Positions 2,158 through 61,938 of a DNA stretch of 64,000 bases are shown one piece after another. A program made the translations under genes and the position numbers. The notes under the pieces were generated by a model. The model saw nothing but the letters and a program-made list of their open reading frames with translations, had not been told where the DNA came from and made no database searches. This DNA comes from Pomacea canaliculata (lineage: Eukaryota; Mollusca; Gastropoda; Architaenioglossa; Ampullariidae). The stretch spans positions 682,001 through 746,000 of the forward strand of contig NC_037602.1 of assembly GCF_003073045.1 (NCBI RefSeq), written 5' to 3'. Positions within the stretch are counted from its first letter, which is position 1, and every line of letters starts with the position of its first letter.

Positions 2158-5100
2158 CTCCTTGACCAATGATGCAATGAAAAGGGCGGACAGTGGTGTT
2201 TGTTCTGCAGGTTTAATGATGACCACATTGCCAGCAGCCAGGGCAGGTGCCAGCTTCCAGGTAAACATAGGTGTAGGGTAGTTCCACTGCAGACAAAACA
2301 TGGTGCTTGTGCATTGAGGGAAACAAAGTTTATATACTGATGTAGACACACAATTTATATATTGATATAAAAGTGCACTTACACCTACTGTTCATACATG
2401 GTAGAGGTAAGAAGATGTCTAAAAAGCTCTGACAACTGCACATAAGCTAAGAGCTCAATTTTATAGATTAGGTAGTAGATACTGACTAAACTAATTACAT
2501 TGTTTGCACAAAGTTAAGATGATTTTGTAGATTACTTTCATTATCAAAAACCAAAAGATGGCTCATTTGTATCAGATCGATCATCTTCCACCCTTTGTAT
2601 GTAAAACTATCTGAGAACTATCTGATCACCTACAGTCAAAGCTGACCATATATGGTCAAAAGGTGCAGAAGACACAACATTAAACTCACAGGAATGATCT
2701 GGCCACACACTCCAACTGGCTCATGGCGAGTGTAGCAGAAAAAGTCACCATCTGAGAATAGCAAGTTTGGATTTTACTGAGAGAGAAACTGAGACAAAAG
2801 GGGAGAACGACATATACAGAATAAACCTCTCTCATAACATTGGTTTTCCTCAAGAAATCACCTGGAAATAATTTAACTCAACCATGCATCATCTCAGAAT
2901 ATGAAATAAAACATCTTGGCAAGATATTCAAATATCATGATGTCATCAAAAAATATTGTGATCCAATCATAAGTTATGACAATACTCACTGATAGGTATG
3001 GTCTTGCCGTGAATCTTGTCAGCCCACCCAGCATAGTACCGCAAGACTTGTAAGGAGAAGTGCACATCCCCAAGAGCAGACAGGTATGGTTTGCCATTGT
3101 CAAGAGTGTCAATGCTCTATCAAATATTACATACACTTAAATACAAGCACTGTTTATTCGTGAACAATGAATCAAATGAAAAAAAAATAAGTTAGGAGAG
3201 TAATTCGGTGGAATAACAGTATATCTGTAAATCTCACAGAAAAAGGAGGACCCAATAACAGATCTGTAAAGACAATCTGTGAGCAAAGAAAAGCAAGCAG
3301 GGTTGCAGAAATATATCATCAGGGCAACACACAGATCGTTAATTAGCTGACGTGCTTCTACTGCGACTGTTTCATTTAAGGTATTTTGGCTGCAGCCCAG
3401 AGGAAGTTAAAGAATGGGAATTTTTTTATGGGCCCCTAAAAAGGAGTACTGTATAATAAGCACAAATATGTTTTAATCTTCAAGGTTCACACATACACAT
3501 ACTCGCATGGAAGTAAAAGGGAGGAATGTGTTTGAAAAACATGACAAAGGCATAAAGAGGATCTTACAGCAATCATTGCAATGTTTTTCTCTATTAGGTC
3601 TGCAAGCCGAAACAGAAGCTGTCCACGAACGCTGGCATCCATACGTCTCCATGGTGATCCCAGCTTGAAAGCTTCTCTGGCTGCATCAACTGCCTTGTCA
3701 ACATCAGCCTGCACATGGAGATATCACCTTCAACTCTGAGATCACTGAGTACACTAGCCGCTGAAACCAGCAAAATTATGCCTTACAGACTGTTCACACT
3801 ATTACAGCTGAGCTTAGGAGTGATCTTGCTTTGCAGTTTTTTTCCCCCCATCAAGAAAAAAAATGAGGGAATGAAATGCATAGGATGTATATGCAAAATT
3901 TGTACAAAATATTCTATTCCTTAATAAGCCAAAAAAGGACCTCTTTCAGTGTACTGCGCAGTCATCGACATGAACCAGACTCGATCTTTGCTCCCAATCT
4001 GATCAGAATTAAGCATTTCTGCCAACATGTTTCCAAATAATAATAACAAAAAACAACAACTGATGCAAGTGCTGGTCTACAGCATGGAAGTTATTAGCAT
4101 TTTGATTGCCTCCCTGCCCCTGTCCACCCACGTGGCTTAGACCCAAGCTCCCAATCAATACTTCTCTCATCATCTCCTGCTTTCTTACATGCAGGAGTCA
4201 CTATAGCTCTATCCTATTCTGTATCTTTTTGTGCACACACTGCTGTAATGTTTCTGTAATTCTAGTTGCTATCACTCTGTTTTATCTTCTTTTACACATA
4301 CTGCTCATAACAGCGATTTGCTGTTTCTAGTTCTATCATCTTACACAATATTACTGTTTTCAGTTACCTGAAAGTGCACGGTTTTCATAATTCATGTGTT
4401 CCTACAAGCAAAGTACCCAAGCTCTTGTGCCAAGTTGATCAGTGATTGTATCTGCTCTACAGCTAATGGTTTCTTAAATTTTTCTCTAAGATGAAATGGC
4501 TGCCTGCTTATCTCTGGCATAACAATACAGATAAAGCAGGACCATTTCACTTTCCTCACCTTGTCAGCTTCCTGTACATCAATAATTTTCTCCCCTGTAG
4601 ATGGGTTTATGGCTGGAAATGTCTTGCCACTATCAGAGTTGACAAACTCGTTATTGATAAATAACTGAAACAGAACAGTAAGTAAACATCCAGACTAATC
4701 ACACTCAGATTCTCTGTAGAAATGTATCAGCATCATGAAACCTAATAATTTGTGTCTGCAGCATAATATTCATGATGATTTGAGCTAACATTTAAAGTTT
4801 TTATTATACCAAAATTGACCATAGAAATTTTACTTAGCAACATTGTAAAATCTTCCTTCTTCAAATGAGTGTTTTCTGGCGAGTAATAGATTCTACTGGG
4901 TCCAAAATGTCAAACACCGGGGATGCGGAGGTGGAGATTCGAGCCCGACTGGCGAAAGCCAGCCAGGCCTTCGCCTCACTCAGGAGCACATGGAAGGCAA
5001 AAAACATCAGTCAGAAGATCAAGCTGAGAATCTTCAAGTCAACTGTGATCAGCACCCTCCTTTACGGATCAGAATCTTGGAAGATGACTAAAACCATCAG

Positions 5101-8100
5101 TAACAAGCTTGACGTCTTCCAAAACAGATGCCTCAGGCGCATACTTAACATCTTTTGGCCAAACACCATCACCAACGAAGAACTCCACCGAAGAACTGAA
5201 ACCGAGTCCATCACCACGCAGGTTCAACGAAGGCGTTGGCGATGGATTGGACATGTGCTCCGCCAGCAGACAGCAGACCTCTCCAGAGTTGCCCTACGAT
5301 GGACTCCAGACGGCCGAAGAAAATGAGGCCGCCCAAAGGAAACTTGGAGAAGAACAGAGGAAAGGGAGATGAAGGGAAAGGGCTGGACATGGGGTCACCT
5401 AGAGCGGGTTTCAGCCGATCGACATCGGTGGCAGACTCTGGTTGAGGCCTTATGTGCAACCTGATGCACGAAGAGGAATAGATAGATAGATAGAATAGAT
5501 TCTACATAACTAGTACAAGACAGATTTATTATATGTATACACATTTATTTTGAACCTTATGTACAAAATGTTTTGTGGCCAAACTTTAAATGACAAGCCA
5601 CACCTAAGCTGTTGTGCCTGTTGCACAAAGCCCTCTCACTTAATTACACAGCAAATGAAATGACATTGACACAAATTTATAATCTACTTCAAAATTTCAA
5701 ACCATAAGATGAATTTTTAAAAATTTGTAAATTTAAAACTAGATTATAACATTACAAGAGCACATAACACTATTTCAATACACTCACCAACACATATTAC
5801 TTCCACCATATAGTCTAGCATTGCCTCACACCGCCAGCATCTACACACTTGAATAATGCTATCTCCCTTTCACTCATTTTTGTGATTCACTTGCATAAAG
5901 GGATTTTTAATTTGTTGTCAACAGTGAAGATAAGTGTTTTAGTGCCCTGTTAACACTTCATTGATATTGTAACAAATCCACAGGACAATGTATAACTTTC
6001 AGCACATTCTGCTGTTAACTTAGTGCGTTGCAGTAGTTCCAAAATAATCTGTGCTGAGATTACAATGCATATTTTACAATGCTCTTTCACCTGTACTTAT
6101 AGCTATGTATCTGTACAACTACTTTCTATGCAGCAGCTAACAACTACACTACAACAGTTTTTGTGCAACAACTTGTCGGCAGATGTGATAAAGATTATCT
6201 GACTCAAGTTCAAGCTTGTTTTCTTCCTCTTATCTATGTACTACATACAGTTTGGGCACAGGCAGTGTCCTTCAACAAGCCTGACAACAAGTACAGGCAC
6301 ACCTCCAGCCCTGACACACTTTCAGGATCATTAATAATACATTGAGAATTTAATGAAATCAAGCCAAAACATGCACATTAAAAGCATGGGCTACGTCTGC
6401 TTTTTGATTCATTCTCTCCAGTCAAACTTTATTCATCAGACCTACTAAATCACAATGTTGCTTCCCCATCCTACCTCTGTACTTTGCCGGAATATAAGAA
6501 GCTTTAGCTGTACACATCAGTTGAAGGGCAAGTTTTTAAGTAAAAAACTAAAATCCCTTTTATAAAATCATCTGCAAAAACTTAGCTAGTAACCTGGATG
6601 AATTTGCTTCATTTGTGCAGGCACCAAAATCCTTGGCTATACTTGTATAATCTAACACATTTCAAAAGATGTAATTCTATGTGGTTATTTAAACAGGATT
6701 TGAATGAGCCTAAAGCAATACATATAAGTTCTCTATACACTTAACCAGTTAAGCTGGTTCATGATAAGACTCACTGAAATGCTGCATCATGCCCCTGAAT
6801 GACCTAGGAAAAGTACCATTAAATAAAGATAAACAGAAAGCAGCAAGTGCTGACTCAAATCAGAAGCAGTCAAAATCAGGTGAGGTGAGGGATCATACTT
6901 CACAGAGGGTACTTTTAACTATCTCTGTGTCAGCCTTGAACACCTGGCATATCCCGGCAAAAGCATGCCAGCAAAGTTATTAAAACTCTGAAATGCCACT
7001 GGCATTTTGGCATGATACAGGTGACTTAACTGCGAGCTAGGAACTTTAAATATTGTGGACAGAAGATGCATGTAGACTGTATAATCTGCAATTACAACTT
7101 AAAACAGTAAGATAGTAAAGGTTAATTCCATCTTTGGATTACTCACTAACAACCATATTAAAAAAAGCTTTGACAATGCAATGCATACATGTGAACTGGT
7201 TCAAAACTTATCTTTTGTATACTTTGAACCTTTTGTTGGTCTATCTGTGTGTGAGAGAATATAAATGTATAGTTTAAAAATCAAGTGGCTGATTTCCAAA
7301 GTTTGGATGACGGATGACTTGCAATTTACACGAGGAATGTGCTCAAGAAGGAGTGGATGTAATTTAAAAATGTCCTGCAAGTGAAAACAATTTTTTTTCT
7401 TATTAGAGATGATGGTAATATTTTCTTACCTATTATAATGAATTTGATTTTTTTAGCCCTATATACATTTTTTTTCTTCATGCAAGATTCAGTTCTCAAG
7501 CAATCACTTCTGAGGGTGTAGCCTCTGATCCTGTTTCAAGTCAGTTGAAAGGCTTGTATATGTAGCTGAACACTTGTACATGTTGCTGAACACTTGTACA
7601 TGTTGCTGACACAGCATGCCCAATAGAAGTATATTTGTTTTTTGTTTTTTTCAATAAAATTGACAAAATGTTTTTCTGTTTCCAACTTTCCTATAGGGTA
7701 TAGAGGGTGGGATAGGCAGCCTGGCAGAAATGAAATACCTGCAGCAGTAAAGACTGGGCTGCTATAATGAAAACAAAACTCACAGTGCCAACTGATAATG
7801 GAGTAAAGATGATCATTACGAACCAGAAAATGTTTTCGTTTTATTTCAATGAATCGGCGTTTGACATGATTAAAAGTTTGTGGTAAATGCTTGATATTTT
7901 TTTTGCCACGTCAAGATATTGTTTGAAGTCTTCACCTAACATGGATGGATGGCTCAAGGACTAATTATTGTACAAAATTTCGCGGTCACAGCAGAAATGT
8001 GCAGACCGCCAAAGTGTCGTCTGCCTTCAGCGCCAACCGTCAGTTGATACAAAAGTAGTTCACACTCATCTGCATTCAAAAGTGAAACAAGTATCTGATA

Positions 8101-8745: not shown

Positions 8746-9221
8746 CACTGTGTGTGTGTCGCGGGGTGGGAGATGCCCGTATGGTACCTATATTTTTTGT
8801 CAAGTCGTTGGCATGGATGGTCACATTCCCACATTTGTCACACTGCATGTAGACTTGACAATATTTTAAATGAAAGTAGGGGCTGGCACACCGGAGATAA
8901 ACACCTTCTAATATATATATACGTAGATATGTTTATGTAGGGCCGGTGCAAAGAGTTATCAGTGCCTTTAAATTTAGTTACGTATATGCCAAAAGGCGTA
9001 CTCAATACATATAATGGGGACAGCCAAATAAGTCTGTCTTGCAACGTTGTTGATCTCATATATTTTTTAATTAAGGAAATAAAATTAAGGTAAAGACATA
9101 CAAATCGTGTTAATAAAATGCACACAGCTATATGACAGCGCATAAAAGTATGCAAACTTATCTGTTCAAACTCTCATCACGTGGCTGTAGGACAGTCTGC
9201 ACTGTGCGGCGAAGTGCAGTC

Positions 9222-9577
9222 CACAGATACATTGTTACACAACAGTTCAGTTCACAGATACATTGTTACACAACAGTTCAGTTCACAGATACATTGTTAC
9301 ACAACAGTTCAGTTCACAGATACATTCTTATACAACAGTTCAGTTCACAGATACATTCTTATACAACAGTTCAGTTCACAGATACATTGTTACACAACAG
9401 TTCAGTTCACAGATACATTGTTACACAACAGTTCAGTTCACAGATACATTCTTACACAACAGTTCAGTTCACAGATACATTGTTACACAACAGTTCAGTT
9501 CACAGATATATTCTTATACAACAGTTCAGTTCACAGATACATTGTTACACAACAGTTCAGTTCACAAATACATTCTT
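9222..9577. repeat. 31-bp minisatellite, 12 copies
   Basis: The unit CACAGATACATT + 7-mer + AACAGTTCAGTT repeats exactly every 31 bp from 9222 to 9563. The central 7-mer alternates between GTTACAC, CTTATAC and CTTACAC, giving variant units in an irregular order. Because 31 is not a multiple of 3, three overlapping open frames of 141-177 codons result; they are not genes. Confidence 0.97.
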
Positions 9578-10292
9578 CTCGACCGGCCCCTTCCCCATCC
9601 ACCAACGCCGACCCTCCTCCGACCCCTTCTTCCCCGCTGGTCACTGCAAACATGTCCTCGAATAATGGGCTTTTCCTGTAATGCATGAGCTGAGAAACTA
9701 GAGTGGTGAAGTCAACCCACTAGGCAGAAGAAAGATTTCCTGCAAATGTCATTAATAAATTTTATGAACATATTTTCCCCTCACATTATTTATCTGAAAA
9801 AACCAACAGCAGGCCTAGTTTGCCTAATGGTAGAACCGACCCTGGGTTGATGATAAGTGATAACAGAATTAAACTCCATCGGCGCCATGCTGTCACGATT
9901 GGACGTCGCCATTTTGCTGAGACAACTCCGATAAACTGAGTTTAGGACGACAGTAAAAGTTACTTCCCTTGGAGTAATGTTTGATCAATTTTGCAGACGA
10001 CGCGCGCGCGCTCTCTGGATGACTAGCCACTTGACTGACCTAAGCTTGCATGACGACCTTTTGAAGCCTCATATATATATATACACACACACACGATCGC
10101 AAAACGAGAAACACTTACTGATGAATTAAATGAATTTATCTTACATTTTCGCCACAAAAGTAGCCCCTGCGTCTCGGCCGTGACATCGAATACAACATGA
10201 TTATCCGTGGATGTAAACAGGTGTGTAAAAGGAAGAAGTGGGAGGATATTGGGATGTAGGTGCTTTACCCCTAGCAGCAACTAAGGCAATAT

Positions 10293-22606: not shown

Positions 22607-25208
22607 ATGGAGGACTTATCCACCGCCAGCTCCAGTCATCTGCACAAGATGGAGCAGACCTCGGTCTGTAAAGACTGCAGTGTGCCTATGACAACTGCTT
22701 CATTGGCAGGTGGCACGTCTGATCTGATATCCTGGCAGGTAGAAGACAAAATGCATGTTTACTGAAGTTTAATTTCCTCTTCAGCAACGTCCAGAACAAT
22801 GATTGGTTTGACGTCGACAAACAAGACGTGATATTTATAGACATATTTCTATAAATATATATACACAACTTGTTTCTTTAACACCGACAAACAATAACAT
22901 GGGGCAATATTGCAGCGAAACATTGACACTACAAATGCAACAAGTTTCTGTCATCAGTTCACTTGCGACATGTGACGAATGAAATATCACAGGAAACGAG
23001 CGAAAGTTTGTGACAAAATTAAGTGTACTCTTCCTTTCTTTAGATTGTTGTCATTATTTATTTGTTTGTTTGTTTTACTAAGCTACAGTTGCTTTCATAG
23101 ACAAGAAAAATTCCTCGTATTAGCTGTCTCTTGTTTTATGTCTGAAGACAATGTATTTTGTTTCCATGTGATGCATGTAAGGCTTTCACAACGACCTTTA
23201 TTTGTCATCTGGATACTTCATACATCTCTGTCACTGGACAGTTGCTTTCTGTGATATGACATACATCTGTCGTTAGGCCGTTGTTTCCATGCGATAGTAA
23301 ACATGTGTCTGGTCAGATTGTTGATTCCATGTTGCCAGGTTCTGACATCTGTGTCATCAGTGATTCCATGGTTCCAGTGACTTCTGGTTGTTTCCGTGTG
23401 CTTTATGCTGCTGTTCGCATGTGATGAGGATGTTGTTTCCATGCAATCAAACTATTGTTCCACTCAAACTAACTGATGTTTCCATGTTGCCAGGATGTCC
23501 GCTTGATAAGACTGGTCATCGCCTTTCTTATCACGGTTCTGCAGCTGGTGCTGGGTATCCCTGGCAACGTGCTCAGCGCCCTGGTGTTCTACAGACAGGG
23601 TCTGAGAGAGAGGATCAACCTGTGTCTCTTTGCCCTGGCACTCACTGACCTCGTGGTCAGCCTGTACTACGCCCTCCTCACCATGGAGGAGCAGCTGCGC
23701 GAACTGTTCCTCCTCGACGCTTGGTTGGTGAAAATCCATTTTGTAGGTGAGTGGACAGCAAGGGTGAGGGTCAGCTTTGTAGACAAGTGCACGACAGGAG
23801 GGTTAACTCAGTGAGTCGGGAGGGGTGAAGGTCACTTTTGTGGGTGAGTGCAGAACAAAAGTAAAAACAGCTTCTAACTGAAAATTATGTGAACAAACTA
23901 CTAACATAAATTTTATAGTCTGCACGAGAACCTGATTCCAATCTAGTCAAAAGAGAACTTTTCATGTTAAACTACTACATCTGTGGATGAACAGCTTGAT
24001 GAAGGTGGTGGAGGTATTGCATAGTAAACATGATCATATAGTTATAATCACCAGGACTAGTCACCACAGGTATACGAAATCCTTAAAGATGCAGTTTGGT
24101 TTTTACGTATTTATTTAATCAGAGCTAAAGTCAACAGTAAGTTGACAGCAGGTCAGAACAACAAACGTCCAGACAGACAGATAAGAAAAACAAATCTTGA
24201 TTAAAACATGTTCCTCTATAATAAACAATAATATTTAATGCCTTTCGTAGCGTGCGTGGGCTTCCTGTGGGCCTCTCAGTTCCTGTCGGCGGTGATCGCC
24301 AGTGAGCGTTGTTTCTGTGTCGTCAGTCCCTTCCACGCCAAGAGGCTGCTCAAGACGTCCACCATGGCCGCCATCATCGTCGTCTGCTCCTCTCTCATCC
24401 TCTGTGGATTCTGTGCGGCTGTGCCTGGCAGGTTCTCGGCCACCAGCATTGTGGACCCTGTCACCAACACATCAAAGACAAAGTTCTCTGTCACCAGGTA
24501 TGGCTGTTAAAGACGGGAAAGCACCGAAAGCCATAGGAGCGTGTGTCACAGTTAGTACAGACAGCCTCGACACCACAATGTTAGAAGTACGAATACGATT
24601 AATTTCTGCGCACATCCTTCCAGCATCTTATTACGAAAAGTCGTTTTCTGTTCTCTCCCAGGTATTATTTAGATAACCAGAAAGTGATGGATATCCTCGA
24701 CGTCTTCGTCTACGCCACTGCATTGCCGTCCATCTTTTTCATCATCATCGTCGTCACGACAGCCGTCGTCGCCGTCAAACTTCAGTCCGCTCTGGCGTGG
24801 AGGAACTCTGTAGCCACATCGGAGACAACGCAGGTCTCAAAAGACGTGTCCACATCCAAAGCGAGGCTGTCGAGTAAAGAAGTGGCGGTGACCCGGATGT
24901 TGATAGGCACGTCACTCGTCTTTATCGTCTGCGCCATTCCTAACCTGTGCGGTCAGCTGGCCAGCTTCATAGTGCCAGACCTCAGCTACACGGGCAAGTT
25001 TTACAATCTTTATTCTCTCATGTGGGCGGTCATAGGGCTATTTCGGTCCATCAACTCGTCTCTTAACTTCGTCGTCTATTACGTCATGAGTTCAAAGTTC
25101 AGGGTGACCCTGTACACGCTCCTGGGCTGCTGGTGCAAAGGTCACAAGTCTCGTCCAGACGTTAGTTGTAATGTCGTGTCCTCAGACATGACCAAATCTC
25201 TCGCTTAA
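22607..25208 (+). CDS. Rhodopsin-like GPCR 1 (gastropod chemosensory-type receptor)
   Basis: Seven-transmembrane receptor, 392 residues, presumed to sit in the plasma membrane; ligand unknown. Coding exons 22607-22738, 23494-23746, 24251-24497 and 24662-25208, with intron phases 0, 1 and 2. Exon 1 (44 residues) is the extracellular N-terminus ending SDLISWQ. Exon 2 holds TM1 (LGIPGNVL), the YRQGLRERIN loop and TM2 (LALTDL). Exon 3 holds TM3 with ERC at about 147-149 in place of DRY, then TM4 and loop 2 with an N-glycosylation site (NTS). Exon 4 holds TM5, a long basic loop 3, TM6 (CAIP in place of CWxP), TM7 (NSSLNFVVYY in place of NPxxY) and helix 8 (SSKFRVTL). The ATG is the first in frame; the frame stays open upstream of it. 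It is the closest paralogue of GPCR 2. Confidence 0.9.
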
Positions 25209-29743: not shown

Positions 29744-32417
29744 ATGGCAGGCCTGATGACCACCCATCTCACCCAAGTGGAGCTGATCAGTGGCAAAAAA
29801 GGAGAATTTGTCGTTATGACAACGACTTCGGTACCCTCTGACCTCATATCGTGGGAGGTAAGAGAATACACATGTGCACGCACGCACGAACGCACACACA
29901 CGTGCGTACAGTGAAATGAGCACAATTTCTAAGCGGGCATTCAAATGTAAAGAAATGTCGAGCAAGAAACAAGCACATGGGGTGAAAACAGCTCATAAAA
30001 AGTGAAACTCATGACAGCGGCTCTAGTACTGTTCCTCTCACAAAAACACACCAAAAAACCAAAATCGAAAAGATATCTGACATTGCCTGCTTTGTCCCGT
30101 GACACGTGAGGCCTCATCTTACTTGCATCGCTTTAGTTTGTAGGGTGTGCACAGGTCGTGAGCATGTCGAGGTGTAGACCCAGCTTCACACGCAGTTCAC
30201 GGGAGACAACCAGTACCTGTAGCATGGCGTTAGCGTCTGCAAGAGTTCTGTCCCCTTATACTGTTCACGCTTGACTTTTCACTTTGTCATGTCGGTTCAT
30301 CCACAGCCATTAAAGACAGATTTCAAGCTAACCCAGTTTTTGCTATTTCTAGGGAGTCTCAGCCATTTTTCTCTATAGCATACAAAGAGTGTTTGCGAGA
30401 AAGTGTAATTGAATTGCTGGTGACAGAGACTGGTTGTCCCTCGATAAGTGAATATATCGTGACCAGCTCGTCCAGGGGCGCCCAACCTACGGCCCGAGGG
30501 CCTCATCCGGCCCGCTCATTTTAACAAGGCACAACATAATTTCATGTTTGGTCTCATGGTCCTGGCAAAGCCGCCATGTTCTGGCCCGCAAGACTTTATA
30601 TCATGTCCAGTGCGGCCTTCGGGTGGACAAAAAGTTGGGCACCGCTGTCATTTGTGTCCTCTCCTTACTCTATGCAAATATGACTTTTTCATGGGTGACC
30701 AAGCTATTGTTTCCATGTGCCCAGGAGGTCCGCTTGATAAGACTGGTCATCGCCTTTCTTATCACGGTTCTGCAGCTGCTGCTGGGTATCCCTGGCAACG
30801 TGCTCAGCGCCCTGGTGTTCTACAGACAGGGTCTGAGAGAGAGGATCAACCTGTGTCTCTTTGCCCTGGCACTCACTGACCTCGTGGTCAGCCTGTACTA
30901 CGCCCTCCTCACCATGGAGGAGCAGCTGCGCGAACTGTTCCTCCTCGACGCTTGGTTGGTGAAAATCCATTTTGTAGGTGAGTGGACAGCAAGGGTGAGG
31001 GTCAGCTTTGTAGACGAGTGCACTACAGGAGGGTTAACTCAGTGAGTAGGGAGGAGGTGAAGATCACTTTGTAGGAGTGCAGGGCAAGGGGATGAAATGT
31101 AGGCTAGTGCAGAACAAAGGTCAGTTCTGTGGATTATATTCAATGAACGTAAAAGTTTAGGACAAAGGTAGTCGACTTGATAAGTTTTTTTTTTAAATAT
31201 ATATATATACTTGCAGACCTTTTACAGTGAAGTAAAAGTATAATGTCAAATGTCCTAGCTTTCGTCGGGTTCCTGTGGGCCTCGCAGTTCCTGTCGGCTG
31301 TGATCGCCAGTGAGCGGTGTTTCTGTGTCGTCAGTCCCTTCCACGCCAAGAGGCTGCTCAAGACGTCCACCATGGCCGCCATCATCGTCGTCTGCTGTGG
31401 TTTCCTTATTGGCGGATTCTGCTCCATTGTGATAGGCAGGTTCTCGGCCGCCAGCGTCCTGGACCCTGTCACCAACACCACCAAGACAAAGTTCTACGTC
31501 ACGAGGTATGACTGTTGATGAAGACGAAATGTTGAATGCGAACCTCGTAAGTACCATCGAATTTGCAAAATATGTTACAAAAACTGGCATATTTAGTGAC
31601 ATCACATAGTTTGATTTGACGGATGATGATGATGATGATGTTGTAACACTAACTGATCCCCCATTTTCAGGCTTTTATTATTAATCTCTGTATTAATAGT
31701 TACCTGTAGGTCACATGAGAACATCACACATTTCAATCCACAGCAGGTACACAAACAACAAATAAGCAAACATCTTTCAGATGCATCAGAGTGTAGACAA
31801 AGTGGCAAGAGGCCATCGATCACAAGAAAACATAAATGGTGAATAAGAGATATCGTTCTTACTTCCCTAGGTATTATCTGGATAACCAGAAAGTGATTGA
31901 AGCTGTCGACGTCTTCGTCTACGCCACTGCATTGCCGTCCATCTTTTTCGTCATCATCGTCGTCACGACAGTCGTCGTCGCCGTCAAACTTCAGTCCGCT
32001 CTGGCGTGGAGGAACTCTGTAGCCACATCGGAGACAACGCAGGTCTCAAAGGACGTGTCCACATCCAAAGCGAGGCTGTCGAGTAAAGAAGTGGCGGTGA
32101 CCCGGATGTTGATAGGCACGTCACTCGTCTTTATCGCGTGCGCCATTCCTAACCTGGGCGGTCAGCTGGCCACTTTCATAGTGCCAGACCTCAGCTACAC
32201 AGGACGGTATTATAACCTACATTCTCTCATGTGGGCGGTCATAGGGCTATTTCGGTCGATAAACTCGTCTCTAAACTTCGTCGTCTATTACGTCATGAGT
32301 TCAAAGTTCAGAGAGACGCTGTACACGTCACTGGGCTGCTGGTGCAAAGGTCACAAGTCTCGTGCAGACGTTAGCTGTGATAGTAAGTCCTCACACAATG
32401 TCAAGTCCCTTGCATAG
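29744..32417 (+). CDS. Rhodopsin-like GPCR 2 (tandem paralogue)
   Basis: 386 residues in four coding exons with phases 0, 1 and 2: 29744-29857, 30725-30977, 31259-31505 and 31871-32417. The 38-residue N-terminal exon (begins MAGLMTTHLT, ends SDLISWE) is unrelated to that of GPCR 1 except for the last residues. Exon 2 differs from GPCR 1 at only two bases by eye (GAT/GAG and GTG/CTG), and the similarity runs on into the following intron. Exon 3 carries ERC, an SPFHAKRLLKTSTM second loop and NTT in extracellular loop 2. Exon 4 has KEVAVTRML before TM6 and LNFVVYY in TM7, and ends KSLA. Intron 1 contains a MITE-like element (30473-30647). Part of exon 3 is identical to GPCR 3, pointing to gene conversion. 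Confidence 0.9.
30473..30647. mobile_element. Short hAT-type non-autonomous element (MITE)
   Basis: It begins CAGGGGCGCCCAACC and ends GTTGGGCACCGCTG, imperfect terminal inverted repeats of the CAG-GG-GCCCAAC kind seen in hAT/Charlie-like elements. GC-rich sub-terminal stretches (GGCCCGAGGGCC, GCGGCCTTCGGG) lie inside each end. It is about 175 bp long with no coding sequence, in intron 1 of GPCR 2. No matching 8-bp target duplication was found, so the exact ends carry some doubt. Confidence 0.65.
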
Positions 32418-34000
32418 GGCGTTGTCATACAAGCTGGCGCTCGCAGCCTTATTAACCCTCGTGTTTCGTTATGGAAATATTTCGGAGATAAAGCAAAGGT
32501 TAATTAATAATTGTCTAGCGGTGTGACGTCTGCAAGTGAAATGTATTAATTCTCTGTTCATTCAGTCTCTGCAATAATTTATTTAGTCGTAACATGCGAG
32601 TGACAAGCCAGTCCTCTAATCATCACAACAACTGTGATATAACCTTTATGGTTTGACTCATTGGTAAAGTTTTTGGCGGATTAGCAAGGGATGAGTAACC
32701 TTGCCCCAAACATTAATATTCGATGATTGGGAACCTTATTCCAGTCACAAATATTTCACCTGTCAACTAAATTACGAAAGTTGTCTACAGTCCACTGAAA
32801 GTCAGTTCACCGAACCATTATCTCTTATTTGATAGAAAATATAGTCTGACAATAATTTCTGTGTGATGGGCCAGTCTTTTGTTGAAACAGGAAAGAAAAC
32901 GAAAAAAAAAAGACATTGTCTCTCAAGGTGTCCTTCTGTTTCTACACAATGGCAACACTGTCATATACAATGTATGAAATGCAGCACAAAAACTGTCCAT
33001 GGACCTCCGTCTCTTGTCCACAAACCGTCAGCAGCTATTGACCTTTGCCCTGTATAGGTGGGAGCCTTACGTGGTTTAAAGTTGTGTCCTCCGCTTGTGG
33101 GGAGCCTATACAGCTATCAACGTTGTTAAAACTTTTATGTTTTTATTTTTTGATGCCTGTTTGTCAAGCCCACCTTTACACAACAAAAGGCTTTGGAAGT
33201 CTTCTACAGAATGACAGTGACAGCCAGTACCCCTTGTCCCGGACTGCGACTGGTGAGGTCAGTTCATTCCCTTGTCACCAGAATGTGGTGAACACTGGTT
33301 ACTAATCACGTGACTACCTGACAGTGAGGTGCGTGGACACGAGACATGTTGCGAGAGGTCTGTCTGAAGACCTCAGAATGATTACAAGAATCGGACAGTA
33401 GACTTGAGTTGGCTTTGACTCTTGTGCTGGTTACTGATGAGGCCAGGACAAGTGTCATTACAACATTCACGACTTTTCCAGTTACTCGATATTCCAACAA
33501 ATTACAAGCTGTGTCCCAGATATTTTGTTCTAAAACTAATTAGCTTCGCCATGTAGAGTGGTCAGTCCTACTGGCTACTGGCGGCACAGTCAGCATTACT
33601 TTCTAAGGAACTCTTGTCCCACAAGTAAACATTAATAAACATTCCAGCAAAAGACGACTGTTGGCACAAATAGCTTTACGGTGTAAGGTACAAACTAATT
33701 TTTATTTGAAGGCGATAATCGCACTAATCATGCATTGTGTAAACAACAAGTAATGCTAAATAAACCAAAACTCAGGAGAGCATGAGGTAGACGGACTAAT
33801 TATTGTCATTTCTTTAAATACATTAAGGAACGCGTTCTTCTTGTGTAGATGTGTAGTTTGCTGTTGTAAGGTCTACATACAGAGTAGTAATGTAACACAA
33901 AATGTGTAAAGCAAGATGTTACCATGGACCGGTGTGTACGATCAGTGACTTTAGTTAATAATATGTGTGTGTGTGTGTTGGGGGAGGGGGAGGATTGGTG

Positions 34001-36935: not shown

Positions 36936-39394
36936 ATGACCATGGTCAGCACGCAGTCAATGGTGACGGAAGCAAGTCTGACTGGGGACCAGAGGTGGAC
37001 TGGCCCCACCACACCCTGCAGGGGCTGCTCCGTGGTCGCGGTTCCATGGACAGGCGATGACGTCATTTCCTTGGAGGTGAAAATCACGTGTGTCACGTGG
37101 TCTGTCGCTTGTCACCCTCAGGGTCACACCAAGTGTCGGCTGCTCACACTAGGTCACTTCGGTCATCTAGGTCAGAGTTGTCTTCATGAAGTGATCTTGT
37201 CTCCCCCTGTCAGTGTGTGGCCTTAAGATTTGTCACATTGAGTGTCCACTGGTCTCACGACCTGTCCAGTGCCAGTGTCCTGTGGTCTTTCAGCGTGACA
37301 TGCTGCTATCCAGTGTCCCATGTTTATCTCTACCTATTTACTTTTGTACCTTATGTAGCATATTCGTATGCATACTCTGCGATTCCACCTGACCCCACGT
37401 GTACTCACTGACTCACAACTGGGTCATGTCATATTGAATACACCATGCTAAAACACTTTACTCATCAGCTATAATCACTCACTAACTTGCTACTCACGAG
37501 CTATAATCACTCACTAACTTGTTACTCATCAGCTGCGAGCGCTCACTAATATGTATCTTGTACATACTCAGACTGTGGGGTGGATTCGGCTGGGGATCGA
37601 CTTCCTGTTGACCGTACTCCTGCTTGTCCTCGGTATCCCTGGCAACGTGCTCAGCGCCATTGTCTTCTACCGACAGGGCCTAAGGGAGAGAATCAACCTC
37701 TGTCTCTTCTCTCTCGCCCTGGCGGACCTGGTGGTGGCCCTGTATTATTTTCTCTTGACAACTGAGGAGGAGATCAGGCAACTGGTCCTTCCTGATTCCT
37801 GGTTCGTCTTGACCAACTTCGTCAGTAAGTACCGCGCCTGTCCTGTGTACTTGCATGACTTCACATTGCATTCACCTTCACAACTCATACACACCTTCAC
37901 ATTCACAGAAGATAACAGATACTCACCTTTATATATGTCCTGTCCATGTCCACGAGACAGCATATTTTTTTAGAAACCACAAACCCGTGATAATTCTTGC
38001 CTCATCATAAAGTTCTGAACGATGATAAACCTCTGCGCTATAACAGTCTCATAGATTGTTAAGACCTATGCCATGTGAACCTCATAATTTCAGCTATCTG
38101 TCCAACTCTCCAGTTTTAATCGGGTTCCTGTGGGCCTCGCAGTTCCTGTCGGCTGTGATCGCCAGTGAGCGGTGTTTCTGTGTCGTCAGTCCCTTCCACG
38201 CCAAGAGGCTGCTCAAGACGTCCACCATGGCCGCCATCATAGTCGTCTGCTCCTTTTTACTCATCGGAGGGTTTTGTGCCGTTGTGGGTGGAAGATTCAC
38301 CACTGCCACATCTTATGACACCATCACCAACACAACGAAAACATTTTTCTACGTCACACAGTATGAACTTGATGCTTCTTGAGTCCCACGGTCTTACAAT
38401 ACTGGATATACAGACATACAGGACATACAGGACATACGGGACATGCTCGACATACAGACATACAGGACATAGTCGACCTACAGGGCATACAGGGCAGCGT
38501 TTATGAAGCTGAGATATGCATGTCAGAATGGCAGTCTCTGGACAGCACGATAATTATTCAAAGAAAAAAATGCTGGATGCAACAACTGCCCTGTCACAAT
38601 CAGCGACTCTGTTCCAAATGCCTTCTCTAATAATTTTTTTATCACTAGTATTATTTTACTGTCAGAAGTGTCACTTTGTTGTAATTAACATTATTTTGAT
38701 GTCATTAAAGTAGAGTTGTTGTTCCTAGTCACCTTCATTGTCAGTATTATCAATTTGTAGTCACTGATAATGTTTCGCTTTCACTATCGTTGTTCGGTTT
38801 TCATCAAGACCTACAAGGACACCGGCCACCATCTGTGTTACCCACTTTCTGTTGCAGGTATTATCTGGACAATCGAACAGTGATCGACATCTTTGACATC
38901 TTTGTGTACGCCACCTTCCTGCCGACAACCTTTCTCGTTATTATTGTCGTCACAACAATCATCACCGACATGAAACTTCGCTCAGCCTTAGCTTGGCGAC
39001 GCTCCTTGACGACGGTAGAAGGTGGGAGGCAGGACGCCGCCACCTCCAAGGCCCGGATGGTGTCCAAGGAGGCGGCGCTGACCCGGATGTTGATCGCGTC
39101 ATCGCTTCTCTTCATCGTGTGCGCCATCCCGTGCTGCGCCGGACAGGTCGCCTACTTTGCTGTGCCGGACCTCAGCCTCACCGGCAAGTACTACACCTTC
39201 TACCAGCTCACCTGGGCTTTGATTGGCATGTTTAGGACCATCAACTCCTCATTCAACTTCCTCATCTACTGCATCATGAGTTCAAAGTTCAGAGAGAGCT
39301 TGGCTAGTTTAATGTGGTGTTGGTATACCCCAAAAGATATGAACTTTAACAAAACTTTAACAAAAACTCGGAATAAAAATGCAGTTTGCACGCT

Positions 39395-39401
<7 letters not shown>
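36936..39401 (+). CDS. Rhodopsin-like GPCR 3 (divergent tandem paralogue)
   Basis: 394 residues in four coding exons with the same phases: 36936-37076, 37572-37824, 38114-38360 and 38858-39401. The N-terminal exon (47 residues, MTMVSTQSMV to DDVISLE) contains Cys, Trp and Pro absent from the paralogues. Exon 2 gives TM1 (LGIPGNVLSAIVFY), the YRQGLRERIN loop and TM2 (LALADLVVALYY). Exon 3 gives TM3 with ERC and a segment identical to GPCR 2 over 121 bp (38120-38240), then a distinct TM4 and loop 2 (NTT glycosylation site). Exon 4 gives TM5, TM6 (CAIP), TM7 (NSSFNFLIY) and a C-tail unlike the other two (WYTPKDMNFNKT). Overall it is clearly more diverged than genes 1 and 2 are from each other. 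Confidence 0.9.
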
Positions 39402-46365: not shown

Positions 46366-47643
46366 TCAACTTTTTGAATATGAACAGACATCAACGTTGA
46401 TGACATTCAAAATGATCACACTCTTTATGAGATTCTAACTAGTTTTATTTTCCTTCACTATAGCTTTAACAGACAACAATCCACAGACTTTGTATACGTG
46501 TTTTGGTTCGAAACTTATTTTATTGCATTTTATAAAACGGTGTTTAAACTACTTCTATTTCAATAAACTGATTATTTCTTAGGTAAATACGTTTTGGCAA
46601 ATAGAACGACCATAGACAACGCCCTTTATCGTACAAAAAGTCTTTGCTTTTGCACTCATTCTATGTTTTAACTGTTATATAGTCGATCAAGATAAAAAAT
46701 AAGGTGTATGTCTAAATATTACCGGGAAGAGGGAGAGAGAGACGAACACGCATGGGTCAATCAGTCAATCAGTCAATCAGTACCACTCGGTGGCCTATGA
46801 GCGCCATGACGGATGTAAAAAATAGTTACCCTGTCTTATTCACACATTTGTCAATATAGTCCACAAAGACACTTTTACTTTCTTTTTCTTCCTGAATTCC
46901 TGAATCCATTCCTAAAGGAAAAGCAGTTTTCGGGAAAGTACTTTTAGTTCGCCGAAAGACTGAACGGCCAATATAATGGCACATTATTCTTCGTGTGATT
47001 CAAAATAAAATTTTTAGAATAGCTTGACAATCTATAAAAGACAACAGACCTAAAGATATGAACAGAGTTGTAACCCAGATGTATGTTTCTCAGTTTACAA
47101 ACTGACTGGAAGGCCATGCTGATTGATTAGTTTGTTCGCCTGTAAACAATCCTTTTCTGTACATCCGTCCTTTAAGTTTAATTCATAAGAAACAAAAGCT
47201 TTCCATAAATAAGGTGACAACACTAGATTGTTCTCAAGCGGGTAGAGGATAGCAAACGACAGACACCATCGAGATTGTTACACCAGGAAGCACTAACGGC
47301 ATTCACGGTTGGACAAATCGAGTAATACGACGAGTGGAATAATAAACCTATGAGGTAAATGACTTTGTTTCCTGTAAACATAAATAAAGGACCAGCTTAG
47401 AAGTAAACATTTTCTTGTCTCCTTCGAAGATGTAAATGACATCCGCATCTCTATCGCCGTCTTCCAGTTACACTTGGTGACAACGCTGAAAAACACTCAT
47501 CACAAAATCAGAGGTGTGTGTATGCACGCGCGTGCGCGTGAGAGTGAGTGCATGTGGCCATAACATACATATCAACGAGGTGAACAAATGATAGACCACA
47601 GCTAACCCTTTGTCTACAGTTCACCGCCATCTGTACACGTGTC

Positions 47644-48725
47644 CTAACACAACACAAGACTTCGCAGCGTTTGCTTGAACTTTGATCCCAGGCTAATGTA
47701 CACAAAGAAATTGATGACAGAGTTGATGGCCACAAGTGCGTTCACAAAGGTTTCCATGACAACCACTAAATTACACAGACGTGTCCAGGGGCGATAATCC
47801 GGTACTAGGAGTCGGGTCAAGGACGTCAAGACACGTGGACTGACGCACGCGATGTAGATACCGGAAATGACGACAAGCATTCTAGTCAGACCGATCTCTT
47901 CCCTACTCAGCTTAGAAGAGCTCGAACATCTATTTCTCCATTTCATGGCATGGTTTAATTTAACTACTGTGATCGTGGTGGTTACGGCCGTTACAGCAAG
48001 GGAAAGAATAGGAACAACAGAATTCATTACCACGGTGTCCAGGATGTCAAGAAAGGCCTTGTTGTCCAGGTAGAACGTGGAGGGGATGACGAGCCACGTG
48101 GGCTCTACCTGAGAGTCGGAATAATAGGCACAGGCTGTGTCGTAGCTGAAGACAATGATCTGACCGCTGCAGGCCAGAGCGAGACTCGCGACCCCAAATA
48201 TGACCCAAAACCCTCGCCTGGACACCAGACTCTGCACCTGTAGAGGGAGGGCGATGTGCACACATCTGTCTACTGAGATGAGCGTGGACACAAGGTTGGC
48301 GATGATGGCGATGATATCGGGATGGACACAAGGCGAAGGCGAATAAGCACAATGTTTACGCGTACTCTAACTCCTTTTCCAAACAGTTGTCCCAGTGTGT
48401 AATTAAAGTATCGGGCATAAAGCGCTATTATAAACAGAAGGTCGAGCAGAGACAACATAAACAGCAGTGTGTTGACTCGACCCTGTAAACCTTGTCTATA
48501 AAAGACAGCGCAGTTGAGGACATTGGTGATAATACCAACAACAAACAACAGTGGAAGAACTACCACGTATATTATACTTGCAACTGTCTCTCTCGATGAT
48601 TGAGTAATTAAGTCCTCGGGACTAGCGCACGGAAAGGACTCAGGCAGGGGCAACCTTAAACAGTTGTCGGACCTGGAGAATACAAGCGAAGTATTGCTGG
48701 GCAGGTAATGTGTGGTCGCTGTCAT
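47644..48725 (-). pseudogene. Rhodopsin-like GPCR 4, intronless coding region, frameshifted
   Basis: The minus strand reads a receptor almost identical to GPCR 5 from MTATTHYLPSNTS (start 48725) through TM1 and TM2. It shifts frame near 48318, where CCGATATC stands against CCGGATATC in GPCR 5, a one-base loss. The first frame stops at about 48270. The rest (TM3 with VDRC, TM4-TM7, INFFVYISLGSKFKQ, ending LVLC) continues in another frame to 47644. All other features are intact, so the lesion looks recent. An assembly error in the window is the alternative. The coding region has no introns, unlike genes 1-3. Confidence 0.85.
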
Positions 48726-56514: not shown

Positions 56515-57785
56515 CGCATCTGCCTTCTTCTTCGTTCCTATTCGCCCCCAGTGGAGCATAGGGCCGCAACCCCACCCCGCCATCGGACCCGGTCCTGGGC
56601 ATCCCTTTCTAGTTGGGACCATGTCATGCCAGCTGTCGCTTCCTCTCTGTAGACTGACCTCCTCCACGTCTGTCTGGGTCTCCCAACCTTGCGCTTCCCC
56701 TGTGGGTTCCAGACCAGAGCTTGTCTTGTTAAATTATCGGCTGGCTTTCGTAGAGTGTGGCCAATCCAGACCCACTTCTGCTTCTTGATGTCTTGGTTTG
56801 CAGGTTTTTGGTTGGCTCTCTCCCACGGGTCTGGATTGGACATCTTCTCGGGCCATCTGATGTTGAGGATGCGGCGCAGACCTCTGTTGACGAATGTCTG
56901 AATCTTGTTGGTGATGGTGTTTGTCAAACGCCATGTCTCAGATGCATATAGGAGGACTGACTTTACATTGGTATTAAAGATGCGGATCTTGGTGTGTAAA
57001 GATAAAGCCTTGGAGTTCCATATAGGTCTTAGGGTGTGGAATGCAAGCCTGGCTTTGTTTATTCGGCTTCTGACATCTTCAAATGTACCTCCGTCTTTGC
57101 TGCTGACTAAGCTGCCAAGGTAGGTGAAGCGGTCAGACTCTGTAATACATTCTCCATGTAGTTGGAGTGGGGCTTCTTGCTTGTTGTTGACCCGCATTAC
57201 CTCCGTCTTCTTGATGTTGATGGTCAGGCCAGTCATTGCTGCTTCTTCTGCGAGCCGAGTGAGCTTTGTCTGTGCATCTTGCTGCTTGTGGGACAACAGG
57301 CTGATGTCATCCGCAAAGTTGACATCCTCAAGTTGCCTGGCGAAGGTCCATGGAACGCCTGTACTGCTCTTAGAGGTTGTTCTTCTCATGATCCAGTCTA
57401 TGACAATCAGGAAGATTGTCGGTGAGAGCATACAACCTTACCTCACTCCAGTCCTCACTGCGAAGGGGTCAGTCAGCTTTCCGTTGTGTATCACCTGACA
57501 TGTCAAGTCCTCATACAGCTGCTGGATGATGGCAATGAACTTCGGTGGAAATCCGTAGTGCTGTATCAGTTTCAAGATGGTTTCCCTGTCAAAAGCCTTC
57601 TCAAAATCCACAAAAGTTATGTATAGTGGCGACTGCCATTCGATGGACTGTTCGATAATATTTCGTAGAGTACCGATTTGGTCTGTGCATGATTTGCCCT
57701 GCCGAACGGCTGCCTGTTCTTGCCTCAGTCTCTTGTTTAGGCATGTACTTTAGCTGGTGACATTTCTTATCAACGGTGTTGCACA
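56515..57785 (-). mobile_element. LINE (family A), 5'-truncated, reverse transcriptase domain partly present
   Basis: On the minus strand: RLRQEQAAVRQGKSCTDQI, ITFVDFEKAFD, LTCQVIHNGKL and GVR-stop-GCMLSPTIFL (a TAA stands where GVRQGC is expected). A 297-codon open frame then carries the catalytic FADD (NFADDISLL), the RFTYLGSLV thumb region, LLYASETW, RRILNIRWP, WVWIGHTLRK and GRPRQTWRR. Similar family-B elements share the layout but not the sequence. It is inserted in unit 2 only. The precise 5' end near 57785 is uncertain. Confidence 0.88.
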
Positions 57786-58922: not shown

Positions 58923-59261
58923 CATGAAAGTAAACATTTGCTTGTCTTCTTCGAAGATGAAAGAGACGTCTTTGGAAGAGAACATTTAACGGCATCCACA
59001 TCTCTATAGGGTCTTCAAGGTACACTTGGTGACAACGCTGAAGAAAACTCAGCAAAATAGCAAAGTTCTGTGTGTGTGTGCTTGCCGCGCGCGTGTGTTC
59101 GAGAGTGATTGAGAACATGTGACCAAAACACACACATAAATGAGGAAAACAAATGAAGAATAAAGTTAATATGGAAACAGATGGTGTTTCATGTTCTCCT
59201 TACAACTGATAGACCACAGCTAACCCTTTGTCTACAGTTCACCGCCATCTGTACACGTGTC

Positions 59262-60344
59262 CTAACACAACACAAGACTTCGCAGCGTTTGCTTGAACTT
59301 TGATCCCAGGCTAATGTACACGAAGAAATTGATGACAGAGTTGATGGCCACAAGAACGTTCATTAAGGTTTCCATGACAACCACTAAATTACACAGACGT
59401 GTCCAGGGGCGATAATCCGGTACTAGGAGTCGGGTCAAGGACGTCAAGACACGTGGACTGACGCACGCGATGTAGATACCGGAAATGACGACAAGCATTC
59501 TAGTCAGACCGATCTCTTCTCCACTCAGCTTAGAAGAGCTCGAACATCTATTTCTCCATTTCATGGAGTAATTTAACTTAACTACTGTGACCGTGGTGGT
59601 TACGGCCGTTACAGCAAGGGAAAGAAAAGGAACAACAGAAAACATTACCACGGAATCCAGGATGTCAAGAAAGGCCTTGTTCTCCAGGTAGAAGGTGGAG
59701 GGGATGACGAGCCACGTGGGCTCTACCTGAGAGTCGGAATAATAGGCACAGGCTGTGTCGTAGCTGAAGACAATGATCTGACCGCTGCAGGCCAGAGCGA
59801 GACTCGCGACCCCAAATATGACCCAAAAGCCTCGCCTGGACACCAGACTCTGCACCTGTAGAGGGAGGGCGATGTGCACACATCTGTCTACTGAGATGAG
59901 CGTGGAGACAAGGTTGGAGATGACATTTAAGATATCCGGAATGCACACAAGGCGGAGGCGAATAAGCACAATGTTTACGCGCACTCTAGCTTCTTTCCCA
60001 AACAGTTGTCCCAGTGTGTAATTAAAGTATCGGGCATAAAGCGCTATTATAAACAGAAGATCGAGCAGAGACAACATAAACAGCAGCGTGTTGACTCGAC
60101 CCTGTAAACCTTGTCTATAAAAGACAGCGCAGTTGAGGACATTGGTGATAATACCAATAACAAACAACAGTGGAAGAACTACCACGTATATTATACTTGC
60201 AACTGTCTCTCTCGTTGACTGAGTAATTAAGTCCTCGGGACTAGCGCACGGAAAGGACTCAGGCAGGGGCAGCCTTAGACAGTTGTCGGACCTGGAGAAT
60301 ACAAACGAAGTATTGCTGGGCAGGTAATGTGTGGTCGCTGTCAT
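59262..60344 (-). CDS. Rhodopsin-like GPCR 5, intronless coding region, intact
   Basis: 360 residues from ATG at 60344. Predicted order: glycosylated N-terminus (NTS at 11-13) with Cys 22 and 33; EDLIT just before TM1 (about 51-76, IITNVLNC); the YRQGLQGRVN loop; TM2 (about 86-108, SLLDLL); TM3 (about 133-155) ending VDRC in place of DRY; TM4 (about 172-194); loop 2 with Cys 199; TM5 (about 230-256); a basic loop 3 (KWRNRCSSSSKLS); TM6 (about 282-303, IACVSPR in place of CWxP); TM7 (about 318-345, INFFVY in place of NPxxY); helix 8 GSKFKQTL and a very short tail. An acceptor (CATTGCAG) sits 9 bases before the ATG, suggesting a 5' UTR intron. It aligns with genes 1-3 throughout but has no coding introns. 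Confidence 0.92.
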   Translation of the reverse strand: MTATTHYLPSNTSFVFSRSDNCLRLPLPESFPCASPEDLITQSTRETVASIIYVVVLPLLFVIGIITNVLNCAVFYRQGLQGRVNTLLFMLSLLDLLFIIALYARYFNYTLGQLFGKEARVRVNIVLIRLRLVCIPDILNVISNLVSTLISVDRCVHIALPLQVQSLVSRRGFWVIFGVASLALACSGQIIVFSYDTACAYYSDSQVEPTWLVIPSTFYLENKAFLDILDSVVMFSVVPFLSLAVTAVTTTVTVVKLNYSMKWRNRCSSSSKLSGEEIGLTRMLVVISGIYIACVSPRVLTSLTRLLVPDYRPWTRLCNLVVVMETLMNVLVAINSVINFFVYISLGSKFKQTLRSLVLC

Positions 60345-60505: not shown

Positions 60506-61938
60506 ATTATCTATCTATTCCTCTTCGTGCATCAGGTTGCACACAACGCCTCAACCACAGTCCGCCACCGATGTCGATCTGCTGAAACCCGCTCTAGGTG
60601 ACCCCATGTCTCTAGGTGACCCCATGTCCAGCCCTTTCCTTTCATCTCCCTTTCCACTGTCCTTCTCCAAGTTTCCTTTGGGCGGCCTCGTTTTCTTCGG
60701 CCGTCTGGAGTCCATCGTAGGGCGACTGTGGAGAGGTCTGCTGTCTGCTGGCGGAGCACATGTCCAATACATCGCCAGCGCCTTCGTTGAACCTGCGTGG
60801 TGATGGACTCGGTGTCAGTTCTTCGTTGGAGTTCTTCGTTGGTGATGGTGTTTGGCCAAAAGATGTTAAGTATGCGCCTGAGGAAGACGTCAAGCTTGTT
60901 TCTGATGGTTTTGGTCATCTTCCATCATTCTGATCCGTAAAGGATGGTGCTGATCACATTTGACTGGAAGATTCTCAGCTTGATCTTCTGGCTGATGTTT
61001 GTTGCCTTCCATGTGCTCCTGAGTGAGGCGAAGGCCTGGTTGGCTTTCGCCAGTCGGGCTCGAATCTCCACCTCCGCATCCCCGGTGTTTGACATTTTGG
61101 ACCCAAGATAGGTGAACCTGTCAACTGCCTCAATCTCTTCTCCATTTAGTTTGATGCTGTCTTGGACTCTGGCGTTCACTCTCATTCTTGGGTAACTTGA
61201 AGATGAGCCCTGTCTTCCACGCATCAGGGAGCTATGCTGATTCCTATTCTTGCCTGAAGAACATGGGAGCTGTCACATTCATATCTGCTTTCAGCATCTC
61301 TGCTGTTATTCCATCTGCCCCTGGTGCTTTGCCGCTCTTCATTGTCTTGACTGCTGCTGTCACTTCTTCCAGGCTTGGCGGGTCTGTGCAGATGTCAAGG
61401 TCTGTAGCTGCTGGCTGGATGTCTGCAAGCTGAGGGGGATCTGGTCTGTTCAGAACTGACTCAAAATGCTCCCTCCAGCGCTGTAGTTTTCCTGCCTCTC
61501 CCTCGATGACATTACCATTCACGTCTTTCACTGGCACATCACTGTTCTTAAACCCGTTGTTTAGCTGTTTGTTTATCTTGTACAGTGTCTTCAGGTTATT
61601 TTTTCTTGCTGCTATTTCAGCTTCATCTGCCAGTTTCTCTATGTAGTCTATTTTGTCGGGTTTTGTCATCCTCTTTACCTCTTTGTTCAGTTTTGCATAT
61701 CTTTGTCTGAGTTGTTCCTTCAGGCGTTCAGATCTGGTGCTGTTGATTTTTTGTTTGCCTGACTTTCTCTCTTCTATCTTCTTCCATGTCTCTTCTCTGA
61801 ACCATTGTTCTTTCTTCTTCCGTTGGAAGCCCAGTATTTTCTCTCCTGTTTCCTGTAAGACTCGATTGAAGTCGTCTAAGGTCATCTCTTGTTGGTCTCC
61901 TGGTGCCTGGAACCTGTTCTTTACTTCCATAGCAAAGG
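60506..61938 (-). mobile_element. LINE (family B) with the reverse transcriptase core deleted
   Basis: The minus strand runs from the linker between endonuclease and RT (MEVKNRFQAPGDQQEMTLDD, ETWKKIEERKSGKQ, ADEAEIAARKNNLKTLYKI, SGKAPGADGITAEMLKAD) to GLIFKLPK. It then jumps straight to the post-RT region ([47 protein letters not shown], ending VEALCAT). The roughly 250-residue catalytic core including the YxDD box is missing. The 3' end has the same ATAG tail as 4897-5493. It lies in unit 2 at the place where unit 1 has 1.27 kb of other sequence. Confidence 0.9.

Follow-up and report, generated by a model that had tools for sequence, protein, structure and literature searches.

Probable recurrent short-tract gene conversion of the (E/D)R motif and intracellular loop 2 in two tandem GPCR gene clusters of Pomacea canaliculata

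A 121-bp tract shared by two of three receptor genes

Three related receptor genes, GPCR 1 to GPCR 3, lie on the plus strand of the window analysed here, a stretch of 64,000 nucleotides of the Pomacea canaliculata genome (C13:682001-746000), and two of them carry an identical run of 121 bp inside an exon that has otherwise diverged. An earlier note on this DNA had read the run as the trace of gene conversion between GPCR 2 and GPCR 3, and the locus raises the question of whether these two genes exchanged sequence or whether the identity belongs to a larger pattern. Each gene comprises three exons or more. Exon 1 of GPCR 2 extends from an in-frame ATG to a donor site (30680-30977), exon 2 (31259-31505) encodes lower TM3, the (E/D)R motif, intracellular loop 2, TM4 and extracellular loop 2, and exon 3 (31871-32417) encodes TM5-TM7, the C-tail and the stop; the three exons splice into one open frame, and an additional exon may lie upstream of exon 1. 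The exon borders of GPCR 1 (23476-23746, 24251-24497 and 24662-25208) and GPCR 3 (37551-37824, 38114-38360 and 38858-39401) were placed by alignment with GPCR 2. All three are class A (rhodopsin-like) GPCRs: spliced GPCR 2 matched PF00001 (7tm_1) with 43.8 bits (curated cut-off 30.5) and PF10324 (Srw) with 37.5 bits (cut-off 22.2), and its ERC motif aligned, at the end of TM3 that faces the cytoplasm, with the ERY of neuromedin-U receptor 1, a class A GPCR of solved structure. The (E/D)R/loop-2 face of a class A receptor is its G-protein contact. The pointers to a putative chemosensory (smell-receptor-like) role are the Srw profile, the tandem layout and the size of the family.

The borders of the identity were recovered exactly as first described, at 31265-31385 in GPCR 2 and 38120-38240 in GPCR 3. 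GPCR 1 differs from each of the two at 5 of the 121 sites, including the TCT/TCG and CGT/CGG differences noticed before, and all five fall within 53 bp of the left end; over the remaining 68 bp the three genes are the same. Outside the tract GPCR 3 is indeed the more distant gene, as over the remaining 126 sites of exon 2 it has 46 differences from GPCR 2 and 47 from GPCR 1, against 31 between GPCR 1 and GPCR 2. A Sawyer-type permutation for the GPCR 2-3 run was borderline with these three genes only (503/10,000), because most of the core is common to GPCR 1 too, and clear with a background of 32 C13 genes (0/200); with that background, 88 of 496 gene pairs were equally clear. Identity over the whole 121 bp was found in 2 of the 496 C13 pairs, GPCR 2-3 and one other, and the leftmost 11 bp (31265-31275) are common to GPCR 2 and GPCR 3 only among the 32 genes. 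GPCR 1 itself, over its 120-bp core, is one mismatch away from each of three distant C13 genes. Conversion was upheld as the best explanation of the tract, but not as an event specific to GPCR 2 and GPCR 3, since the whole C13 cluster is homogenised there; their identity for the most part reflects a norm of the family, and the odd alleles are those of GPCR 1. The 11-bp left extension points to something on top of this norm, either a direct exchange between GPCR 2 and GPCR 3 in addition to the family core, which is possible, or an ancestral state that may have been kept in both while GPCR 1 changed instead.

A further identity links GPCR 1 and GPCR 2, in which 236 bp spanning the exon 1/intron 1 border are the same (23549-23784 and 30780-31015), while exons 2 and 3 of this pair are 86 and 92% identical; a second, more local exchange at the exon 1/intron 1 border is likely. 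The introns of the three window genes show little similarity by blastn apart from about 100 bp of intron 1 between GPCR 1 and GPCR 2, to which the intron similarity of that pair is restricted.

A silent-site island in the C13 and C3 clusters

The genome searched comprised 440,159,624 bases in 24 contigs. In the search with exon 2, the best 40 of 87 candidate places were scored; 35 of them match over 118-158 bases of the 269-base query, and the other five over 238-269. According to the combined genome searches, at least 32 GPCR genes arrayed in tandem on C13 (0.61-1.21 Mb) carry the segment, and a cluster of 25 GPCR genes on C3 (12.63-12.80 Mb) carries another version of it; among the matches listed for a protein search with the core, the next best place was on C8, at 79% protein identity. 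Forty genes were examined whole (37 plus the 3 in the window), and matches to exon 1 and exon 3 flanked the core in all of them except 12732660 on C3, which had no convincing exon 1; several of the 40 carry stops or frame breaks. One of 41 exon-2 matches, a partial one at C3 12657391, was excluded, and for 17 of the 25 C3 genes exon 2 alone was taken.

The earlier note had proposed comparing silent divergence in the tract with that in the rest of the gene, and the two clearly do not match. In the 32 C13 genes, divergence at fourfold sites was 0.031 in codons 16-46 of the exon-2 frame (31300-31392 in GPCR 2, the inner 93-bp core) and 0.517 in codons 1-7 and 47-80; in the 25 C3 genes the corresponding values were 0.008 and 0.256. 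This island fades gradually at its edges, over codons 8-16 to the left and 46-50 to the right, and both edges lie within the exon, away from splice sites, so that a wider homogenised core with graded edges can be drawn at codons 8-47 (31276-31395 in GPCR 2, 24268-24387 in GPCR 1 and 38131-38250 in GPCR 3). On both sides of the core the exon-2 flanks of C13 genes have diverged at 39-47% of bases. A scan of 14 C13 blocks outside exon-2 codons 8-46 gave fourfold divergence of 0.43-0.66 in 13 of them and 0.23 in the remaining one, in exon 1; the exon 1 and exon 3 blocks stood at 46-66% with the exception of that exon-1 block at 23%, and as some exon-1 rows of the scan were out of register, statements on exon 1 rest instead on an exon-1 profile of 27 C13 genes (5 of 32 excluded). 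Over the 93 bp, 16 of 32 C13 genes and 22 of 25 C3 genes match their cluster majority exactly, and the other 16 C13 copies are one or two bases off. The same holds between genes that are only distantly alike: among the 351 pairs of the 27 profiled genes, 190 share less than 50% amino-acid identity in exon 1, and these deep pairs differ in the 93-bp core by a mean of 1.04 bases and a maximum of 3, with 40 pairs identical.

One explanation invokes nothing more than purifying selection at the protein level, with the need to couple to one and the same G protein holding the (E/D)R motif and loop 2 constant. The segment is in fact also the most conserved part of the protein (1.2% amino-acid difference within C13), and in alignment it falls on the ER(Y)/loop-2 region of one solved class A GPCR; however, its silent sites are nearly identical too. 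In columns where at least 80% of genes share the amino acid, the mean synonymous-codon difference was 0.023 for 30 core columns vs 0.395 for 81 columns outside (Mann-Whitney p 1.6e-12), a difference of zero occurring also in 7 of the 81 outside columns, all in exon 1. The cluster on C4 shows what protein conservation looks like on its own: in 20 sampled genes with the same motif, the segment is conserved in protein (amino-acid difference 27% vs 48%), yet it is saturated at silent sites, with fourfold divergence of 0.619 in the core vs 0.599 in the flank (ratio 1.03). Likewise, the sampled genes of C8b and C6c have no silent island (core/flank ratios 1.35 and 0.86). These silent-site data refute protein constraint as the sole cause, barring selection on the silent sites themselves, and we regard it as barely plausible.

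Partial islands were found in C8a, C6a and C6b, with core/flank silent ratios of 0.38, 0.42 and 0.40; a subset of 7 C8a genes, chosen after viewing the sequences, gave 0.15. The silent island as a trait of the whole superfamily was considered and rejected, as C4, C8b and C6c are without it. The genes of these other clusters were drawn from a search with the 40-residue core, which gave at least 836 candidate places genome-wide, the best 150 of them scored (C8, 11 + 14 genes; C6, 9 + 7 + 9; C4, 20). The additional GPCR clusters lie at 25.3-25.9 Mb on C4, at 10.5, 11.5 and 21.9-22.1 Mb on C6 and at 10.0-10.1 and 16.8 Mb on C8. Matches on C4 sit in open frames of 219-441 residues, and the C4 genes are probably intronless.

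A weaker island was seen around intracellular loop 1, at about codons 26-50 of exon 1 in C13 genes (about 30800-30880 in GPCR 2), where nucleotide difference is low (0.11-0.24). Fourfold divergence there is still 0.23-0.60, which argues for protein constraint for the most part and perhaps for some conversion.

Core and flank histories and the mechanism of homogenisation

The core has a history different from that of its flanks. In 29 of the 32 C13 genes (4 of the 40 whole genes, with stops in exon 1, were excluded from the distance correlations), core distances were uncorrelated with those of exon 1, the exon-2 tail and exon 3 (r 0.06, -0.03 and -0.05), whereas the latter three were correlated with one another (r 0.58-0.68, 0/2000 permutations). 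Addition of the C3 rows raised the core-flank correlation to r 0.36-0.43, because two core versions exist. A point against conversion is that distance in the wider core is unrelated to physical distance between genes (r -0.02) and that in the inner core only weakly related to it (r 0.19, 71/2000), the correlation being stronger in the exon-2 tail (r 0.44, 0/2000). On a tree built from the flanks of 38 genes (2 of 40 excluded), which was also the basis for counting allele changes, codon 15 needed 11 changes, codon 10 needed 10 and codon 11 needed 6, and the codon 43 alleles needed 6 changes for 6 carriers; codons 12, 21, 44, 46 and 47 needed 2, 2, 2, 1 and 2, codon 46 (GTG) following the flank tree as the mark of a subclade. 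Since codons 10-15 sit at the left edge, this homoplasy weighs on the edge more than on the inner core. When the flank tree was rooted on one long-branched, related minus-strand GPCR of the window, C3 grouped with 13 of 31 C13 rows (95/87), but monophyly of C13 was not rejected by an AU test (p 0.455); the C13 gene splits need not predate the C13-C3 split, which tempers the conversion reading. Trees of such receptor families can mislead if they rest on the conserved TM3-loop-2 segment.

Module shuffling, with the core as a crossover point between exon 1 and exon 3, was also considered and is unsupported in general, as the distances of exon 1, the exon-2 tail and exon 3 agree. However, exon 1 and exon 3 have the same gene as their nearest C13 neighbour in only 18 of 29 cases, and single shuffling events may have occurred.

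The same data bear on the idea that all genes were duplicated recently and that their flanks then diverged extremely fast, driven by strong diversifying selection or by hypermutation. Young duplicates would have silent divergence like the 1-3% of the core, but the fourfold divergence of the flanks, 0.43-0.66 in all but one of the 14 C13 blocks, exceeds what diversifying selection on protein can produce, and the concordance among the distances of exon 1, the exon-2 tail and exon 3 also speaks against it, which makes recent duplication very improbable. An artefact of assembly or short-read polishing, by which a consensus was written over a repeated 120 bp, has in its favour that the repeat is about as long as a short read. 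Against it, the copies are embedded in different flanks, the 32 C13 genes hold 24 distinct 118-bp versions with codon 46 GTG tracking a subclade, and C13 and C3 keep different bases in the core; such an artefact is hardly credible.

The two cluster versions differ, between their majority cores, at 10 of 93 bases and in 9 codons, 5 of them synonymously, and at those 9 positions the 32 C13 and 25 C3 genes show zero codon overlap. The core is thus able to change silently, though it is nearly invariant inside each cluster, and the presence of a version of its own in C3 indicates that exchange is effectively confined within clusters. The GC content of third codon positions (GC3) is higher in the core than beside it, 0.86 vs 0.57 in C13 and 0.80 vs 0.61 in C3. 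Across 8 clusters the GC3 excess correlated with the silent-divergence ratio in a post hoc comparison (Spearman -0.74, p 0.037), C8b being a clear exception with raised GC3 and no silent island.

These observations also allow selection at the nucleotide level to be weighed, in which the core would double as a DNA or RNA element of each cluster (a regulatory element, a splicing enhancer or a small-RNA target). Near-zero silent change across 31 codons would be expected of such an element, cluster-specific versions could fit cluster-specific factors, and the little dependence on physical distance is compatible with it. However, the two versions differ silently at 5 of their 9 differing codons, the alleles of codons 10, 15 and 43 turn up in separate parts of the flank tree, and the raised GC3 fits biased conversion, which together make a nucleotide-level function less likely. 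In addition, Rfam at gathering threshold found no family in 30600-32500, and folding of the GPCR 2 core compared with shuffles gave no signal (z -0.49 and +0.49 for the two strands), which counts against an RNA element in particular. We consider the nucleotide-level explanation improbable.

The reading that we favour, with a probability of roughly 80%, is that each of the two clusters undergoes concerted evolution through recurrent short-tract gene conversion confined to the (E/D)R-motif/intracellular-loop-2 segment. We infer from the sequence comparisons that exchange, rather than mutation and selection, accounts for the identity, and the identity would persist since selection on the G-protein-contacting loop keeps the segment alike enough for pairing. 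At duplication the genes were most likely alike over their full length. The ligand-binding parts and introns would then have diverged, with exon 1, exon 3 and the remainder of exon 2 following broadly one gene history, until pairing during repair was left possible only where protein function preserves likeness, that is, at the (E/D)R motif and loop 2. Conversion of 93-120 bp, from the cytoplasmic end of TM3 through (E/D)R(C) and intracellular loop 2 to the start of TM4, would wipe out silent differences there, and the regained identity may in turn keep the segment pairable, a hypothetical feedback between identity and pairing. As a result the coupling loop would be renewed in common, and the binding parts would not.

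The length of the segment stands against conversion: at about 120 bp, its homology falls short of the approximately 200 bp quoted as efficient. In the accessible portion of one review of the subject, the minimal efficient processing segment is given as about 200 bp in yeast and rodents, with shorter homology left possible and a mean conversion tract length on the order of 10-100 bp (PMC3924818). A bolder form of the conversion reading makes the core an active, self-spreading conversion hotspot within coding sequence, which would start breaks, be copied through the cluster and so join a common coupling module to independent ligand-binding modules. This is unlikely, and if it were true, 120 bp of homology would sustain cluster-wide concerted evolution in the long term at less than the usual minimal homology length.

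Damaged copies of the genes, considered as a possible test of selection, were also seen: in several, the stops or frame breaks fall outside a core that is itself intact. The C3 copy 12785187 is apparently damaged on both sides of a core that equals the cluster majority, and the C13 copies 612442 and 1139558 have no core differences; little weight is given to these copies because the breaks may be recent and the ungapped reading is crude.

Known systems and other features of the window

Regional homogenisation of this general kind is well known, reportedly also from the zebrafish and human protocadherins in the work of Noonan et al. in 2004, as cited in work on fugu protocadherins. The available excerpts on the clustered protocadherins of fugu describe regional gene conversion in a teleost with several features that recur here: tandem paralogs that are nearly identical in nucleotides in one region and diverged in the remainder, a separate version for each subcluster with some clusters lacking a homogenised region, and raised GC3 in the homogenised region, which was used there as a sign of conversion (PMC1852091). 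According to the same excerpts, the homogenised stretch of the protocadherins occupies the 3' portion of a large exon, with about 250-450 residues (PMC1852091), whereas the snail core is 93-120 bp in the middle of an exon, has diverged sequence on both sides and encodes the G-protein-facing loop. What is new here is the small size and the mid-exon, G-protein-facing position. The V1R pheromone receptors of rodents are likewise GPCR chemoreceptor clusters in which exchange between paralogs has been suspected; in the portion of that work available, conversion was inferred from unexpected dS for particular pairs or subregions, and a short cluster-wide core is not reported (PMC2644715). Molluscan expansions of GPCR genes in tandem arrays are described for cephalopods as well, in a text whose accessible part mentions gene conversion once, as a possible route of rearrangement, and has no homogenised core (PMC6408891). 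Literature searches on gene conversion in mollusc or gastropod chemoreceptors and GPCRs returned no such core among the matches listed, which left subscription papers mostly uncovered, and those on olfactory-receptor intracellular loops and on apple-snail receptors returned none among the listed titles and first lines of abstracts. The P. canaliculata genome paper (PMC6129957) uses none of the terms chemorecept, GPCR and G protein-coupled in its main text.

The clusters serve as a compact natural experiment in the way one protein is divided between gene conversion and selection, in which the G-protein loop is common to a whole cluster and the ligand-binding parts have diverged until their silent sites are nearly saturated. 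Replication comes from having two homogenised clusters, C4, C8b and C6c, without an island, are built-in controls, and the segment lies below the homology length usually quoted as efficient for conversion.

The window contains several other repeated features. Two GPCR genes of the same superfamily lie on the minus strand (47584-48725 and 59202-60344) and are 93-98% alike, the former in two frames and the latter in one open frame, and related short stretches occur near 51.5 and 63.4 kb. An inverted pair of about 600 bp (4897-5488 and 60508-61105) is 95-96% alike; its two members, together with 56538-57431 and 61244-61930, we take to be pieces with reverse-transcriptase-like reading frames. At 9151-9670 lies a tandem array of a 31-bp unit, with one frame open.
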